Source of the DNA: an uncultured Spirochaetales bacterium
GTDB taxonomy: Bacteria; Spirochaetota; Spirochaetia; Sphaerochaetales; Sphaerochaetaceae
Direction: 5' to 3'
NCBI GenBank assembly: GCA_949297785.1
Contig: CASFTW010000001.1
Coordinates: forward strand, 124,001-188,000
Length of the DNA stretch: 64,000 nt
Positions 19,975-41,363 of this stretch are shown here, one piece after another. Both the position numbers and the translations under genes were made by a program. The notes under the pieces are model-generated. The model was not told the DNA's origin. It did not search any database and saw only the letters and a program-made list of their open reading frames with translations. Each line of letters opens with the position of its first letter. Positions within the stretch are counted from its first letter, which is position 1.

Positions 19975-22194
19975 ATGGTTCTGAAAAACAGTCCGCTGCT
20001 TACGAATGGAGATGAGAAATACAGCCTGCGTTCAGTTGTGTTCCTTGCCGTATGCTTCATTTTCATTGTGCTGCTCGGTGTGACAATACCCATCCTCATT
20101 CAGTCCAATTCGCTTTACAGTGTTGAGCTGCTTTACGATTACCAGCCGGGAGAACTGGCCAATGAGGATGTCATAGCTCCGTATGACTTTTCCTTTGATG
20201 ATCAGATCGCAACTGAAAAGCTCAGGGAGGAAAATGCGGCATCCGTCATTCCGCGTTTCACTTTCTCAATGGTACAGACCCAGCATGTGAAGGCGAAACA
20301 GGAGAGGCTTGATGAGATTCTCAGGGGAGAGCAGTCACAGCAGAATGCCCTGCTCAAGGATGAGTTCAATGCGGATGAAGCCTCAATGATCACAAGGTGG
20401 AACCTTATCAGCGAGGCGGACAGGAACACCGTGCTGCTGCTTTTTGCCGATGCCGTGGAGAATTTCCTTTACAAGGGCATTTTCTCATCTGCCGATATCG
20501 CAAACGTGAATCACGAGGGATACGACCTGATATACAGTGAGCTTCCCTCCAATGCCGAATACAATCTCCACCAGACACTGGTCTATACTGACAATCTCAT
20601 AACCGAGAAGAACATTTCCGATTCTCTTCTTGATTTCCTTGAGTCGTATAATGTCAGTCTGTCTCCTGCTGCTTTTTCAATTCTCTTCAATCTGCTTTCC
20701 CTTGCCGTCGAACCGAATGTGCATTACGACGCGCTTGAGACCCAGAGACTGAGGGATGATGCACGTGCGAATACGGAAGTTGTCACAGCCGAGATCCACA
20801 GGGGTGATTACATCCTGCGTTATGACACCATTGTCACAGAGCAGGCTCTGCAGACAATACAGATGATCAACGGCATAACAGTCGATGTCTCAATCATACA
20901 GATAATAAGCCAGATCATTTTCCTTTCGGTAATACTTTATGTATCGCTGTATTTCATGAAGGATTTCATCGAACGCAAGTACAGGGTTCTGCTTTACACC
21001 AATATATATCTCATAACACTTGCACTCATACTGATTGCCACCTATGTCGCTGTATTCCTGTTCCAGAGTGTGTCCCAGGCAAGGGACCAGTTAATTCCCT
21101 TCCTCTTCCTTCCTGTCCTCATGTGCCAGCTTACCAGCAAGAAGAGGATCGGCTTCCTTGCCGGAGCTGTCTATTCCTGTTTCATAATTTTCTTCCCTAC
21201 AACGTCGATAATGACATTCTTCTACCTTATCTTCAGCATTGAGATATCATTGCTGCTGATGAAGTTCTCCGTCACCCGTCTTGATACGGTATACCAGACA
21301 TTCTATACGGCTCTTGCCAATGTCTGCATAACAGCAGTCTTTCATTTCATACAGGGCAGGGAGCTTATATACCTTTTCAGCGAAATCGTCGCCATCACAC
21401 TGAATGTCACCGTGACATATATAATCATTTCGATACTTCTGCCGCTCATGGAGCATTTCCTCAATATTCCGACTGTTTTCCGCCTGCATGAGCTCAGCTC
21501 CACCGACAGTCCTATTCTCATCAGGCTCAGGACACAGGCGATCGGAACATACAACCATGTGCTCAATGTTTCCAACATGGCCTACAATGCCGCAAAGGAA
21601 ATAGGGGCGAATGCCGAGCTTGCCCGTGTAGGGGCTCTTTATCATGACATCGGAAAGGCCGAACACCCGGAATACTTCATCGAGAACCAGGGCGGAGGAC
21701 CGAACGTTCATGACGATATGAAATACACGCTTTCGGCTGCCGTCATAAAGTCTCATGTCAAGCTGGGTGTCGAGAAAGGAAAGGAGATAGGCCTTCCCCA
21801 GGAGGTTCTGGACATCATTGACCAGCATCACGGCAATGACATCATATTCTATTTCTACAACAAAGCCCTTGAGGAAGCAAAGGAAAGCAAGACTCCCATT
21901 CAGGTCAACGAGGAGGACTTCAGATACACCTCTGATATTCCCCAGTCCAAGGAAGCCGGTATCGTGATGCTTGCCGACTGCTTCGAGGCGGCTACGCGTT
22001 CGCTCAAGAAACCGACGACTCTGCGTTATGAGAAGGCTTTCACATCAATACTTGTCGGCAAGATGAATGCAAGCCAGCTTGATGACTGCAGGCTTTCAAT
22101 GTCCGAGATTGAGAAGATAAAGAAAGTATTTGTCCATCAGGTGTTCGGCCGTGACCACAACAGAATCCAGTATACGAAGGAAGAAAATGACTGA
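19975..22194 (+). CDS. pgpH: 7TM-HD family phosphohydrolase (PgpH-type, probable c-di-AMP hydrolase)
   Basis: Integral membrane HD phosphohydrolase, about 739 residues from the ATG at 19975. One N-terminal membrane segment is followed by a 7TMR-HDED extracytoplasmic domain (containing VIAPYDFSFDD and IHRGDYILR), seven membrane helices (about 300-480), then a cytoplasmic HD domain with the metal site HDIGKAEHPEYF (His557-Asp558) and QHHGNDI. In Listeria, PgpH hydrolyses c-di-AMP, and the same role is inferred here. I chose 19975 over the in-frame ATG at 19954 because AGGAGGA lies 11 bases upstream of it and the shorter form does not overlap phoH. It overlaps ybeY by 8 bases. Confidence 0.9.
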   Translation: MVLKNSPLLTNGDEKYSLRSVVFLAVCFIFIVLLGVTIPILIQSNSLYSVELLYDYQPGELANEDVIAPYDFSFDDQIATEKLREENAASVIPRFTFSMVQTQHVKAKQERLDEILRGEQSQQNALLKDEFNADEASMITRWNLISEADRNTVLLLFADAVENFLYKGIFSSADIANVNHEGYDLIYSELPSNAEYNLHQTLVYTDNLITEKNISDSLLDFLESYNVSLSPAAFSILFNLLSLAVEPNVHYDALETQRLRDDARANTEVVTAEIHRGDYILRYDTIVTEQALQTIQMINGITVDVSIIQIISQIIFLSVILYVSLYFMKDFIERKYRVLLYTNIYLITLALILIATYVAVFLFQSVSQARDQLIPFLFLPVLMCQLTSKKRIGFLAGAVYSCFIIFFPTTSIMTFFYLIFSIEISLLLMKFSVTRLDTVYQTFYTALANVCITAVFHFIQGRELIYLFSEIVAITLNVTVTYIIISILLPLMEHFLNIPTVFRLHELSSTDSPILIRLRTQAIGTYNHVLNVSNMAYNAAKEIGANAELARVGALYHDIGKAEHPEYFIENQGGGPNVHDDMKYTLSAAVIKSHVKLGVEKGKEIGLPQEVLDIIDQHHGNDIIFYFYNKALEEAKESKTPIQVNEEDFRYTSDIPQSKEAGIVMLADCFEAATRSLKKPTTLRYEKAFTSILVGKMNASQLDDCRLSMSEIEKIKKVFVHQVFGRDHNRIQYTKEEND

Positions 22195-22645
22195 TTTCGA
22201 TGTTTTCTATGAAAATGAGGAGTACGAGAAGGATGCTCCTCCTTCCCTTGTGAACAAGGCGCTTGAGATCGCAGCGGGAGAGATCCTGAAAGAAGGAACA
22301 TTCTCGCTGAGTTTTGTCAGTGAGAAGACAATTCAGGATGAGAACAGGGAATACCGCGGTATTGATGCCGTGACTGATATCCTCACATTCGTTCTTGATG
22401 ACGGGGATGACTTTTTCCCTGTTCTCGATGAGGAGAAAGAGTGGGGCGATATCCTCATATGCACGGCGAAGATGAAGGAAAACGCGGCACAGTTCAATGT
22501 TTCAGAGGAAGAGGAGCTCCTGCGTCTTCTCATTCACGGATTGTTGCATCTCTGCGGTCTTGACCATGCGACAAATGATTTTTCAACTGAACCGATGCTG
22601 AAAAATCAGGAAAACATATTACAAAATCTCAAAAAAATGCTATAA
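22187..22645 (+). CDS. ybeY: Endoribonuclease YbeY
   Basis: Metal-dependent RNase for 16S rRNA 3' maturation and ribosome quality control, 152 residues. The signature zinc site HGLLHLCGLDH (three His) lies near the C-terminus, preceded by YRGIDAVTDILTF, typical of the family. The start at 22187 (MTDFDVFYE) has AAGGAAG upstream and overlaps the end of pgpH by 8 bases. A longer frame upstream would be inside pgpH and is rejected. Confidence 0.95.
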   Translation: MTDFDVFYENEEYEKDAPPSLVNKALEIAAGEILKEGTFSLSFVSEKTIQDENREYRGIDAVTDILTFVLDDGDDFFPVLDEEKEWGDILICTAKMKENAAQFNVSEEEELLRLLIHGLLHLCGLDHATNDFSTEPMLKNQENILQNLKKML

Positions 22646-22652
22646 GGTCCTC

Positions 22653-23528
22653 ATGACTATCGAAGAATTGAAAGAAGAAAAGCCCTGGATCAAGCGGGGT
22701 ACTGTTGTTTTTATGTCTGATTTCGGTACTGTAGACGGTGCAGTGAGTGCAATGCACGGTGTTGCAGATGAAGTCGATCACTCTCTCAGACTTGAAGATC
22801 TGACACATGAGATTCCACAGTTCAATATCTGGGAAGCAAGCTACCGCCTCATCCAGGCGATGACATACTGGGCTCCCGGTACGGTGTTTGTTTCCGTTGT
22901 TGATCCCGGGGTGGGGTCCGACAGGGCTTCCGTCGCCGTTCTCACAAAAAGCGGACACATTGTCGTGACTCCTGACAACGGAACACTGACTCATCTTGCA
23001 AAGCAGATCGGCATTCTTGAGGTGAGAAGGATATCCGAAGCCGAGAACAGGCTGAAGAACAGCCAGAGAAGCTATACATTCCACGGCCGTGACGTTTATG
23101 CATATACAGGCGCACGTCTTGCTGCCGGAATAATCACATTTGATGAAGTCGGACCGCTTCTGGGCAGGGAGACAGTCTCGCTGCACATGCAGGATCCTGT
23201 GATCAGGGATAATGCGATATACGGTTCAATCGATATCCTCGACACACGTTACGGATCGCTCTGGACGAACATTCAGGACACAATGCTCACAGAGTTCGGT
23301 GTCAAATACGGCGATATGCTCCGTGTCACACTGGCATATGAGGAGAGAATCGTATACAGTTATGTCCTGCGTTTCTGCAAGAACTTCACGGAAGTGGAGA
23401 AGGGCGATGCGCTTGTATATATCAACAGCCTGCTCTGTGTGGGCATCGCGATCAACCAGGGATCCTTTGCAGCCGAATACCGTATCGGCACAGGGGAAGG
23501 ATGGCTGATTAAGCTTGAGAAAATCTAA
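22653..23528 (+). CDS. SAM hydrolase / SAM hydroxide adenosyltransferase family (DUF62)
   Basis: Enzyme of the DUF62 family, 291 residues. Members split S-adenosylmethionine into adenosine and methionine using water; halide-using relatives are fluorinase and chlorinase. Family features visible are the N-terminal SDFGTVDG, SVVDPGVGSDR, TPDNGTLT and FHGRDVYAYTGA, which supply the Asp-Arg-His water-activating set seen in hydrolases. The C-terminal beta domain follows (DTRYGSLWTNI). It is placed 23 bases upstream of an ECF transporter S component, and with the ECF AAT gene forms a likely transport and salvage operon. Substrate of the pair is not known from sequence. Confidence 0.88.
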   Translation: MTIEELKEEKPWIKRGTVVFMSDFGTVDGAVSAMHGVADEVDHSLRLEDLTHEIPQFNIWEASYRLIQAMTYWAPGTVFVSVVDPGVGSDRASVAVLTKSGHIVVTPDNGTLTHLAKQIGILEVRRISEAENRLKNSQRSYTFHGRDVYAYTGARLAAGIITFDEVGPLLGRETVSLHMQDPVIRDNAIYGSIDILDTRYGSLWTNIQDTMLTEFGVKYGDMLRVTLAYEERIVYSYVLRFCKNFTEVEKGDALVYINSLLCVGIAINQGSFAAEYRIGTGEGWLIKLEKI

Positions 23529-23551
23529 GCCTAATTCAGGAGGATGAAAAT

Positions 23552-24112
23552 ATGGCAAAAAAGAATATTAACTACGTAAAGACCGTAGTTATCATCGCAA
23601 TCGGTGCAGCTCTGTATGGATTCGGAGGTCTTCTCTCAATCCCTGTATTCACAAACACCTACCTTAAGCCGGCAATGGCAATTCTCGGTCTCTTTGCAGC
23701 TCTCTGGGGACCTGTTGTAGGTATTCTCGTGGGTTTCATCGGCCACTGCATCACTGACCTCGTATACGGCCAGATCTGGTTCAGCTGGGCTCTCGGTTCA
23801 GCAATCGTCGGCGGTCTCATGGGTCTGTATCCCTACATCACAAAGAAGAATCTTGAGCAAGGTGTTTTCGGCGGCAAGCAGGTTGCAATCTTCACTGTAA
23901 TGTCTCTGATTGCAAACTTTGTCGGTTACGGCATTTCTGTTGTATTCGACGTTGTCGCATACGGCGAACCGTTCCTCAAGTCTCTTACACAGCAGCAGAT
24001 CACAACTGTGTCCAACACAGTCGTCATGGGTATCATCGGCAGTGCGCTCATGCTTCTTGTTGCAAAGAAGTTCTCTTCAAGTATCAGCCTGAGTGAGGAT
24101 TCCAACGTATAA
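23552..24112 (+). CDS. ECF transporter substrate-binding S component
   Basis: A 186-residue integral membrane protein with about six hydrophobic helices, opening MAKKNINYVKTVVIIAIGAA. Such proteins bind a vitamin or related small molecule and dock onto an ECF AAT module. Loops with YGFGGLLSIPVF and GHCITDLVYG resemble the DUF3816/riboflavin-like S group, but I cannot assign a substrate. It has a strong ribosome binding site (AGGAGG) and lies between the SAM hydrolase gene and the fused ECF AAT gene (2-base gap), so it is very probably the dedicated S subunit of that transporter. Confidence 0.85.
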   Translation: MAKKNINYVKTVVIIAIGAALYGFGGLLSIPVFTNTYLKPAMAILGLFAALWGPVVGILVGFIGHCITDLVYGQIWFSWALGSAIVGGLMGLYPYITKKNLEQGVFGGKQVAIFTVMSLIANFVGYGISVVFDVVAYGEPFLKSLTQQQITTVSNTVVMGIIGSALMLLVAKKFSSSISLSEDSNV

Positions 24113-24114
24113 CC

Positions 24115-26730
24115 ATGATTGAGTTCTCTACCTTTTCCTTTCAGTATAAGTCTCAGACGAAACCGACCCTTCATGAGATAAATCTCAGGATAAGGGATGG
24201 GGAGAAAATCCTGATTGCCGGTGCATCGGGCTCCGGCAAGTCAACTCTCGGCAGTTGCATAAACGGACTGATTCCCCATTCGCTTGGCGGACATATTGAA
24301 GGAAGTCTCAGGATTAACGGGGTAGAAACCAAAGAAAGTGATATATACGAAATAAGCAGGGAAGTCGGCACTGTCCTTCAGGATACTGACAGCCAGTTCG
24401 TAGGGCTGACAGTAGGAGAGGACATTGCCTTTTCCCTTGAGAATCAGTGCATTGACAAAGAGAAGATGCATGAGACTGTGATGAAGAGTGCATCTCTCGT
24501 GTCAATGCAGGATTTTCTCGACAACAGTCCTGAAGACCTCTCCGGAGGTCAGAAACAGAGAGTGGCGCTTTCCGGCGTGCTTGTGGATGATGTTTCCATC
24601 CTGCTTTTTGACGAGCCCCTTGCCGCACTTGATCCTGCGACAGGAGAACTCGCCATCGAGCTTATCGATGATCTGCACAAGCAGACCGGAAAGACAGTTA
24701 TAATAATCGAGCACAGAATTGAAGACGTCCTGCACAGGGACATCGACAGGATCGTTCTTGTCGATGAGGGCAGAATCGTCATGGATGACACACCGGCCAG
24801 GGTGCTTCAGTCCGGCATTCTTGTTGACAAGGGTATAAGAGAGCCATTGTATGTGGCTGCGATGAAGAATGCAGGCTGCGATGTGTCAGGAGAAGAGAAT
24901 CTTGACAGCATTGAGCGCATGGACATTTCTCCGTACAGGGACAATCTGCTGAAATGGTTCAGCGCAAAACGCAGAAAGCTTGAGCAGAAAGACACTCCTG
25001 CCGCGCTTTCTTTCAGAAACGTATCCTTTTCATATGACGGCAGACGCAATGCGCTCAACAATATTTCATTTGATGTGCACCGCGGTGAGATGATCTCGAT
25101 TCTCGGCAAGAACGGTGCCGGAAAATCCACGCTTGCCTCCATTCTTACGGGAATATACTCACCCGACAGCGGCCAGATATTCATAGACGGAAAGGATGCC
25201 AGCATGGAAAGCATCGCTGAAAGATCCCGGAAAATAGGGTATGTGATGCAGAACCCGAATCATATGATCAGCAATTCCATGATCTATGATGAAGTGGCTT
25301 TCGGCCTCCGTCTCAGAGGCGTGGATGAAGATACTGTCAGAGAGAAGGTGATGGATGTGCTCCGGCTCTGCTCGCTGGCCCAGTATCATAAGTGGCCGGT
25401 CAGCGCACTGAGCTATGGACAGAAGAAAAGAGTCACAATTGCATCAATTCTGGTCATGGAACCGGAAATCCTCATCCTTGATGAACCTACTGCCGGACAG
25501 GATTACAGACGCTACAGTGCGATGATGTCATTCCTCTCCAGAGTGAACAGGGAAACCGGAATCACCATTCTTTTCGTGACTCATGATCTTCATCTTGCAC
25601 TTGAATACACACCGCGTTCAATCGTGCTTGCTGACGGTCAGCTTTTGTGCGACGCTCCGATCAGCACCATATTCTCTGATGAGGATCTCCTCAGAAGTGC
25701 GAACCTCAAGGTGACATCTCTTTTCACTCTTGCCCGCAAGCTCGGTCTGGAAGGAAGCGATGTCGCATCTTTCATTGAAACTTTCATTGTTGAGGAAAAA
25801 CACAGGAGAGGCGAGGCCGAAGCCGTGGTTGATGAAAAGGTCACACAGAAAGACAAACCTGTTGTCAGAAAGAAGGAAGAAGGGGAGGCAAAGCGCAAAC
25901 AGCTCAAATTCGACGTCGAGTATTTCCCCGCCGACAGCTGGGTTCACCGTCTCAACGGAGTGACGAAGTTCGGACTTCTCATCACCTGGCTGCTTGTGAG
26001 CCTCATGACATTTGATGTGAGGGTTTTGTCGGTCACTCTTGCCGCAGGACTGCTTACACTTGCCACATGTCATGTTCCGATAAGGAAATACAGGCCGATT
26101 CTCATATTTGTTTTCCTCTCTGTGCTGCTCAACGCGCTCTTCATATACCTTTTCTCGCCGCAGCAGGGACCTGAATACATGGGAAGCAGGACGATTCTCT
26201 TCAATCTTCCTGATACACATTACACACCCACGGCGGAGACGCTCTGGTATCTGCTGATTGTCGTGATGAAGTATTTCTCTATCTCCCCGATTGCGATCAC
26301 GTTCATCTACTGTACCCAGCCAAGTGAATTCGCATCTTCCCTCAACAGGCTCGGGATAAGCTACAAGATTTCCTATGCTGTAAGTCTTGCCTTCAGATAT
26401 ATTCCGGTAATCATGAAGGATTATACGAATATAAGAGACAGTCAGGCATGTCGCGGTGTCGAGATTTCGAGAAAGGCAAAGCTCAGCCAGAGGATCAGCG
26501 GAACGACAAAGACACTTGCCCCTCTCATCCTTTCCTCGATTGACAAGATCGACATCATAACGAATGCCATGATCCTTCGCGGTTTCGGCAAGAACCGGAA
26601 GAGAACCTGGTACCGTGCCGATTCTCTCAAGACGGCGGACTGGATTCTTATTGCCTTCATGGCTGCGCTTATAGCACTGACTGTATATCTGCGCTTCGGC
26701 ACCGGAGTCAAATTCTTCTACCCGTTCTGA
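24115..26730 (+). CDS. ECF transporter with both ATPases and the T subunit in one chain
   Basis: An 871-residue fusion of three normally separate subunits. ATPase 1 has Walker A GASGSGKST at 36-44 and signature LSGGQKQR. ATPase 2 has Walker A GKNGAGKST at 331-339 and a deviant signature LSYGQKKR. A charged linker around 560-600 (KDKPVVRKKEEGEAKRKQ) leads to a C-terminal EcfT transmembrane domain (about 605-871) with the two coupling motifs containing Ala/Leu-Arg-Gly (ACRGVE and LRGFGK). The S component is encoded two bases upstream, so the complex would be one AAT polypeptide plus S. Double ATPase fusions occur in YkoD-like proteins. The extra T fusion is less usual. The operon appears to end before the gap promoter. 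Confidence 0.92.
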   Translation: MIEFSTFSFQYKSQTKPTLHEINLRIRDGEKILIAGASGSGKSTLGSCINGLIPHSLGGHIEGSLRINGVETKESDIYEISREVGTVLQDTDSQFVGLTVGEDIAFSLENQCIDKEKMHETVMKSASLVSMQDFLDNSPEDLSGGQKQRVALSGVLVDDVSILLFDEPLAALDPATGELAIELIDDLHKQTGKTVIIIEHRIEDVLHRDIDRIVLVDEGRIVMDDTPARVLQSGILVDKGIREPLYVAAMKNAGCDVSGEENLDSIERMDISPYRDNLLKWFSAKRRKLEQKDTPAALSFRNVSFSYDGRRNALNNISFDVHRGEMISILGKNGAGKSTLASILTGIYSPDSGQIFIDGKDASMESIAERSRKIGYVMQNPNHMISNSMIYDEVAFGLRLRGVDEDTVREKVMDVLRLCSLAQYHKWPVSALSYGQKKRVTIASILVMEPEILILDEPTAGQDYRRYSAMMSFLSRVNRETGITILFVTHDLHLALEYTPRSIVLADGQLLCDAPISTIFSDEDLLRSANLKVTSLFTLARKLGLEGSDVASFIETFIVEEKHRRGEAEAVVDEKVTQKDKPVVRKKEEGEAKRKQLKFDVEYFPADSWVHRLNGVTKFGLLITWLLVSLMTFDVRVLSVTLAAGLLTLATCHVPIRKYRPILIFVFLSVLLNALFIYLFSPQQGPEYMGSRTILFNLPDTHYTPTAETLWYLLIVVMKYFSISPIAITFIYCTQPSEFASSLNRLGISYKISYAVSLAFRYIPVIMKDYTNIRDSQACRGVEISRKAKLSQRISGTTKTLAPLILSSIDKIDIITNAMILRGFGKNRKRTWYRADSLKTADWILIAFMAALIALTVYLRFGTGVKFFYPF

Positions 26731-40946: not shown

Positions 40947-40986
40947 AAAAGCCTCATTCCGGATTTTGTTGGAAATGAGGCTTTTT
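40947..40986. terminator. Bidirectional terminator between sir2 and the tmRNA gene
   Basis: GCCTCATTCC (40951-40960) pairs with GGAAATGAGGC (40971-40981) with a one-base bulge. It is flanked by AAAA upstream and T5 downstream, so it can end the sir2 transcript on the + strand and sit behind the tmRNA on the - strand. Confidence 0.75.
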
Positions 40987-40988
40987 AA

Positions 40989-41363
40989 TGGAGGTGAGGA
41001 GACTCGCACTCCTGTCCTGCCGGGACATCCTGAAACGTCTACAGAGCTTAGCCGCATTTTGGTTTTTCCCGTTCAGATAGCGTAATGCTGCCAACGCACC
41101 TGTACGGTATTTGCCTTAGAGTCCCTCAGCCCCGGCAACTGGGAAGAGGCAAGACCCTGTTGGTGTCGGACAGTCTCGGGTTAGGATCAGTACCTTCAAC
41201 GCCGTGCTCTAAAAACACTGCTTAGGCAGCGAGAGCGAGTGCTTCGTCAGAGACGTATTCGTCTTCTTTCTTTGCATTTAATTTTTGGTGATAGTTTTAC
41301 AAGTTGTCGCTTGGCCTGCAGTCTCAAGCCTGCTCTGCCGGCAGTCGAAACTGGAACACCCCC
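40989..41363 (-). ncRNA. ssrA: Transfer-messenger RNA (tmRNA)
   Basis: About 375 nt on the minus strand. The tRNA-like ends pair: 5' GGGGGTG (41363..41357) with 3' CACCTCC (40996..40990), followed by discriminator A at 40989. CCA is not encoded. The T arm is AGGAG / TGCGAGT / CTCCT. The tag reading frame 41275..41222 gives AKKEDEYVSDEALALAA and stop TAA, ending in the usual LAA-type degradation signal. The resume codon is taken as GCA at 41275..41273, which is inferred. A -10 box (GATAAT) lies six bases upstream of the 5' end with TTGTTA further up. Partner SmpB is encoded 0.7 kb away. Confidence 0.95.

Follow-up and report, generated by a model that had tools for sequence, protein, structure and literature searches.

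We report that a three-gene system at positions 22653-26730 of a 64,000-nucleotide stretch of DNA from a gut spirochaete (henceforth the window; G000:C1:124001-188000, source genome 2.2 Mb and 95% complete) unites, in a gene order conserved in relatives, a DUF62 hydrolase of S-adenosylmethionine (SAM), termed SAMH, with an importer of the energy-coupling factor (ECF) type that consists of an S component and an 871-residue ATPase-ATPase-EcfT chain. The operon is quite probably part of methionine and SAM metabolism. We further propose, with a probability of roughly 45%, that SAM or a SAM-like compound is imported and serves as the SAMH substrate. The enzyme and its dedicated group I ECF importer would then form a methionine-scavenging operon: the S component would bind SAM, the inactive (R,S) epimer of SAM or a closely similar sulfonium or amino-acid compound outside the cell, the single-chain ATPase-ATPase-EcfT (AAT) motor would drive toppling of the S component and release on the inside, and the DUF62 hydrolase would split the imported compound into L-methionine and adenosine. 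This proposal builds on gene order, domain content, a putative catalytic triad, the fold of the S component, co-occurrence, exchanges of transporters and methionine T-boxes in relatives, from which we infer uptake itself, the epimer concerned and the identity of ligand and enzyme substrate.

The conserved operon, the T-boxes and the swapping importers lead to one question, namely whether the importer delivers the substrate of the SAMH. If true, the SAM importer reading would supply a ligand for an orphan ECF family (UPF0397) and a physiological function for DUF62, and it would bear on the feeding of methionine auxotrophs in the gut. The stronger form of the proposal, a dedicated high-affinity bacterial importer for SAM (perhaps its R epimer) that is wired to a SAMH and makes SAM a nutrient, we regard as doubtful.

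Linkage of the SAM hydrolase to the importer

The three genes lie on the plus strand, with 23 bases between SAMH and the S component and 2 bases between the S component and the fusion. This arrangement and the length of the fusion had been proposed beforehand from the letters of the window (henceforth the sequence-only reading), and the list of open reading frames (ORFs), Pfam and NCBIfam agree with it. Both SAMH domains exceed their Pfam cut-offs, SAM_HAT_N with 161.5 bits (cut-off 26.3) and SAM_HAT_C with 69.6 bits (cut-off 25.5), and the nearest solved chains are 2zbu and 2f4n. The window protein carries DPGVGSDR and FHGRD; all scanned relatives have DPGVGxxR, and FHGRD was missed in a single one (L010, a pattern miss). 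From these motifs, with residue numbers taken from the sequence, we assign a putative triad of Asp84, Arg91 and His144. A His-Arg-Asp triad is described as strictly conserved in DUF62 hydrolases and missing from halogenases (excerpt of PMC10491745), and the SAMH motifs are consistent with this distinguishing triad. At 124 of 350 bits, the protein falls short of the NCBIfam cut-offs for named (R)-SAM hydrolase equivalogs, and we therefore assign no stereo-preference. The cellular role of DUF62 is openly disputed: excerpts of one study report that StDUF62 favours (R,S)-SAM, doubt that hydrolysis of (R,S)-SAM by DUF62 is physiological and suspect another function (PMC12120602).

The linkage was surveyed in 295 spirochaete genomes, in which PF07155 and PF01887 were searched separately. 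Among 35 loci examined, 22 PF07155 loci with a DUF3744-type ATPase neighbour were counted as clusters, the remaining PF07155 matches lying outside this count; distant SAMH loci (L110, L112-L121; 27-34% identity) were left out of the analysis. Of the 22 genomes that carry this ECF cluster, 12 possess a SAMH, without exception inside the cluster, at 0.9-4.5 kb from the S component (<4.6 kb start to start). Co-occurrence over the 295 genomes is modest (12 versus 5.7 expected, P 0.0026, relatedness ignored), and adjacency, rather than co-occurrence, is the strong part of the evidence. The order within the clusters varies: SAMH may stand first, follow EcfT (T) or separate T from S. Within the window's genus, the ATPase pair (AA, with or without fused T) and SAMH occur in the identical 12 of 16 genomes and are both missing from the same four, and the series SAMH-S-AA-T is also found on two Enterococcus (E. 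faecium) plasmid records. This survey, which the sequence-only reading had suggested, establishes the three-gene order as conserved in relatives. That the genes are mere operon neighbours, with no functional link, appears very improbable: SAMH and S-AA-T are each also found alone, but the clustering in 12 of 12 genomes, the varied gene orders and the recurrence in both Bacillota and Spirochaetota speak against chance. Among the papers searched, none was found that joins ECF and SAM hydrolase, which says nothing of papers outside that collection. As a separate observation, S-AA-T of the G245 type follow genes resembling a SaoP/SaoA sulfonate- or taurine-type ABC permease and ATPase (L082:6154-8095).

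A second line of evidence comes from exchanges of the importer. Eight members of the class Spirochaetia have a SAMH that is not beside this ECF, and in five of them genes of a polar-amino-acid importer (SBP_bac_3/HEQRo) adjoin it. These are arranged as substrate-binding protein (SBP)-permease-ATPase-SAMH in L104, SBP-permease-SAMH in L103 and permease-SAMH in L107 and L109, while in L102 two SAMHs are divergent from SBP-permease-ATPase. Within the genus of the window, exchange is also apparent between ECF types. The SAMHs of G003, G006 and G011 fall inside a family-level clade (support 100/99) and are 66-68% identical to the window SAMH, yet their S components share 31-35% identity with that of the window, and their union with the fused type is rejected (approximately unbiased (AU) test, p 1.35e-6, S tree of 35 chosen loci). 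Of 53 distinct matches, 29 entered the SAMH tree, and 15 of 38 entered an initial S tree; the filter dropped the window's own rows, identical rows being present under other ids. SAMH is found in total with three different importer types. An enzyme that changes importers yet still stands beside one suggests that the incoming compound matters to it.

Several further arrangements of SAMH genes were observed. Two different SAMHs lie in or beside one transporter operon in L080 (4060-4950, 7555-8406), L090 (2718-4487) and L102 (8193-9880), and these paired enzymes are ~51-55% and 41-43% identical to the window SAMH, as if two epimers or substrates were handled; loci holding two SAMH genes number three (L080, L084 with its partner in L047, and L090). 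In G290, a Sapep/PepV-type M20 dipeptidase gene stands between EcfT and the two SAMHs (L090:4484-5956). A SAMH gene lies between yigE and uvrD (L067:8001-8819), with no ECF adjoining, in 2374 of 5426 complete E. coli genomes by megablast. A presumed adenosine/MTA deaminase beside SAMH in L104 was rejected, the amidohydrolase there being NagA-like.

Methionine context and candidate ligands

The S component scores 115.3 bits with PF07155, ECF-ribofla_trS (cut-off 26.7), and 170 bits with PRK13661 (cut-off 99). In an AlphaFold model built with 13 sequences (pLDDT 82.4), its fold is supported by Foldseek and VIA-align, with TmRibU at E 6.6e-5 and S components at Z 17.0 to 10.1 (rows 1-23). Ala16 and Ala20 of the AXXXA motif in helix 1 are invariant in alignment A2, with Gly at the first place in more distant members (A1); the role of this motif in ECF S components is treated in PMC11109136 (excerpt). 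As modelled, the protein is an S component, and its fold gives no ligand name. Structural matching was rejected as a guide to the ligand, as HmpT, ThiT, FolT, RibU and PanT all score between Z 17.0 and 14.8. A second PF07155 S component in the source genome (L087, G000:C4:12729-13193) belongs to another ECF module without SAMH; it was considered as the same system and rejected, its ATPases being only 28-30% identical to those of the window fusion.

The databases name this family a riboflavin S component, and the importer might accordingly carry a vitamin, either riboflavin or vitamin B6 as for HmpT/PdxU2, with SAMH linked secondarily, for example through cofactor supply for methionine metabolism. 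PF07155/COG4720 is indeed assigned to PdxU and PdxU2/HmpT in excerpts of PMC9997740, HmpT yielded pyridoxamine in mass spectrometry (PMC4860826, in part), and HmpT (4hzu_S) is the best structural match at Z 17.0, though tied with ThiT (Z 16.7). However, a profile of 22 S relatives matches SaRibU (3p5n) at E 0.013 and HmpT at a non-significant E of 7.2, and in that weak alignment Met42 and Ser83 stand where HmpT has Glu41 and His84. The sequence-only reading had set a well-characterised vitamin family against its own proposal; the S component does share PF07155 with the B6 proteins, the only characterised members of the family named in the literature searched, yet it stands apart from HmpT, and by the weak alignment these two residues are not retained. 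For riboflavin, RibU is COG3601 in the excerpted transporter survey (PMC4418817), and nothing found in our analysis backs the family label. No flavin mononucleotide (FMN), thiamine pyrophosphate (TPP) or other riboswitch was detected at the locus or in the window (the six matches, with E values of 1.3 to 6.3, stay under their cut-offs), an absence that does not exclude a ligand, and none in the 20 relative loci scanned. With the regulatory context in Bacillota being methionine, we consider a vitamin importer clearly unlikely. In the S family, Trp76 and Trp79 are invariant in the alignment, and our guess is that a sulfonium cation could pack on them.

On the two E. faecium plasmid records, a T-box (110.5 bits) precedes SAMH-S-AA-T, and its specifier position, read by eye from the cmscan alignment, is AUG (methionine); one of these plasmids has a neighbouring mmuM/permease operon with its own AUG T-box. 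In Listeria, a solitary SAMH, which we take to be lmo2587 from the order fdh-SAMH-mdrT, lies behind an AUG T-box. In Table 2 of a T-box survey from 2008 (PMC2494555), lmo2587 is entered as 'Met related cytosolic hypothetical'. Among spirochaetes, metK precedes S-AA-T by 18 bases in G293, a genome without SAMH, and in G003, G006 and G011 it is convergent with EcfT at a distance of 22-28 bases (matched stretches). Within the window's genus, metK is present in 14 of 16 genomes and MetQ, of the classical methionine importer, in 16 of 16, while methionine synthase was seen as PF01717 in none of the 16 and as PF02574 in one (G013, 62% complete). By gene content, members of the genus seem unable to make methionine. 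Since they also carry the gene for the classical importer, a second importer is better explained by some other methionine-yielding compound. The sequence-only reading had taken the SAMH neighbour as a hint at a ligand related to SAM, adenosine or a cofactor, which would be a new ECF substrate link. The link itself proved conserved across genera and two phyla, and independent context (methionine T-boxes, metK neighbours, exchange for amino-acid importers) favours methionine/SAM over a classical vitamin.

These data could also reflect common regulation without a common ligand: the importer would carry methionine or a methionine precursor, and SAMH, as a separate member of the regulon, would recover methionine from (R,S)-SAM in damage repair. 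The T-box on the solitary Listeria SAMH, the metK gene adjoining S-AA-T in a genome without SAMH, the (R,S) preference of StDUF62 and the amino-acid-type importers as alternative partners all accord with this explanation, as does the ECF system MtsTUV, reportedly assigned to methionine precursors in 2009. MetQ is, however, already present as a binding lipoprotein throughout the genus, and SAMH keeps to its three importer types more tightly than common regulation requires. We judge this alternative to be rather unlikely, if less so than a vitamin importer.

Several points weigh against import of a SAMH substrate. Ten of the 22 genomes have S-AA-T without any SAMH, so the importer works without the enzyme there, and conversely SAMH occurs without such a transporter adjoining in Listeria, Aeromonas and E. 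coli. Three of the eight class members mentioned above (L105, L106, L108) have a SAMH without an identified importer, although L108 does carry a divergent two-domain ABC ATPase. Co-occurrence alone is weak, the metK events are few (two independent, one of them a convergent arrangement), and a methionine T-box is a sign of a shortage response and not of a ligand. Hydrolysis of the cell's own SAM would also consume an expensive cofactor.

The single-chain AAT module and its surroundings

The fusion contains two ABC_tran stretches, DUF3744 and CbiQ (68.1 and 90.3 bits) in one chain and matches NCBIfam ECF_ATPase_1 and ECF_ATPase_2. It is not an assembly error, since 14 distinct loci encode both ATPases and T in a single frame, comprising nine genus genomes, G017, L024, L025, L031 (also G248) and L032 (also G280); at L025 the contig ends within T. 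AA and T are separate, mostly with an overlap of a few bases, in three further genomes of the genus (G003, G006, G011) and in other Spirochaetia, as well as in Enterococcus, Lactobacillus, Cetobacterium and Vibrio. Near relatives with the same SAMH have separate chains with ATGA-type overlaps, and in Vibrio, whose S component is closest to the fused type (51% identity), AA and T overlap by 4 bases. The linker between AA and T is variable across the alignment and predicted to be disordered. We take the fusion to be a recent read-through of the AA/T overlap, unusual but not a new mechanism. Single-chain AAT is a lineage-specific variant that occurs only in a few genera of Spirochaetota. Fusion of AA alone is already known (excerpt of PMC6828968), and no report of AAT in one chain was found in the literature searched. 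An AlphaFold model of the fusion (mean pLDDT 68.8, with the EcfT part mostly <50 from residue 747 on) was rejected as too weak for domain packing. With its fixed subunit ratio, the single-chain module would be a convenient tool for biochemical work on ECF transporters.

The first ATPase half keeps the canonical LSGGQ. The signature LSYGQ of the second half had been taken to suggest that the two ATP sites of the fusion are not equivalent, a claim that does not hold as something special to this protein: wherever the pattern matched, the second signature is LSYGQ, LSFGQ or LSHGQ, including in unfused proteins of Bacillota, Fusobacteriota and Vibrio (several rows of the scan gave no second signature by pattern, marked '?'). 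Unequal sites may be true of the whole family.

Table 1. Features of the three-gene system and the preceding gene, in window positions.
Feature	Position	Strand	Basis
YbeY rRNA-maturation RNase	22130-22645	+	PF02130 99.6 bits, TIGR00043 106.8 bits
SAM hydroxide adenosyltransferase (DUF62, SAMH), 291 aa	22653-23528	+	SAM_HAT_N and SAM_HAT_C
ECF S component, PF07155/PRK13661 (UPF0397), 186 aa; AXXXA at residues 16-20	23552-24112	+	Pfam, NCBIfam, fold
ATPase-ATPase-EcfT fusion, 871 aa	24115-26730	+	ABC_tran x2, DUF3744, CbiQ in one chain
First ATPase half, residues 1-235; Walker A GASGSGKST, signature LSGGQ, Walker B ILLFDEP	24115-24819	+	Pfam, NCBIfam, motifs, alignment
DUF3744 linker between ATPase halves, residues 234-305	24814-25029	+	PF12558 68.1 bits
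Second ATPase half, residues 298-520; Walker A GKNGAGKST, Walker B ILILDEP	25006-25674	+	Pfam, NCBIfam, motifs
Variant ABC signature LSYGQ of second ATPase half	25408-25422	+	ORF translation; Y/F/H family-wide
Charged AA-to-T linker, residues 567-602, poorly conserved, predicted disordered	25813-25920	+	Alignment; pLDDT <50
EcfT (CbiQ) domain, residues 601-871, ACRG and LRGF motifs	25915-26730	+	PF02361 90.3 bits, motifs, alignment

Because YbeY ends 7 bases before the SAMH start, the transcription unit probably begins upstream of SAMH; YbeY is probably on the same transcript, yet outside the system. A GAPDH-like gene begins ~270 bases 3' of the fusion, and the window also contains a tmRNA gene (40986-41363, minus strand).

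Comparison with known systems

A comparative survey of 2009 (Rodionov) reportedly assigned a group I ECF system, MtsTUV, to 'methionine precursors' within the methionine regulon of lactobacilli; neither a SAMH link nor an AAT fusion is known to be described for it. With that assignment, the SAMH-ECF link may already have been foreseen in part. With group I ECF systems that have a dedicated module, the window system shares an S component, two complete ATPases and EcfT in one operon, as well as the S fold and AXXXA motif, and it differs in its single 871-residue AAT chain and in the DUF62 enzyme of the operon. With the vitamin B6 system HmpT/PdxU2 (4HZU), it shares PF07155 (PMC9997740, in part) and the tied best structural match, whereas the dedicated module, the SAMH neighbour, the non-significant profile match and the two residues not kept in it set the window system apart. 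The SAMH, finally, resembles StDUF62, PH0463 and MJ1651 in having both SAM_HAT domains and a putative Asp-Arg-His triad, and differs from them in being coupled to an importer and in scoring below the named equivalog cut-offs.

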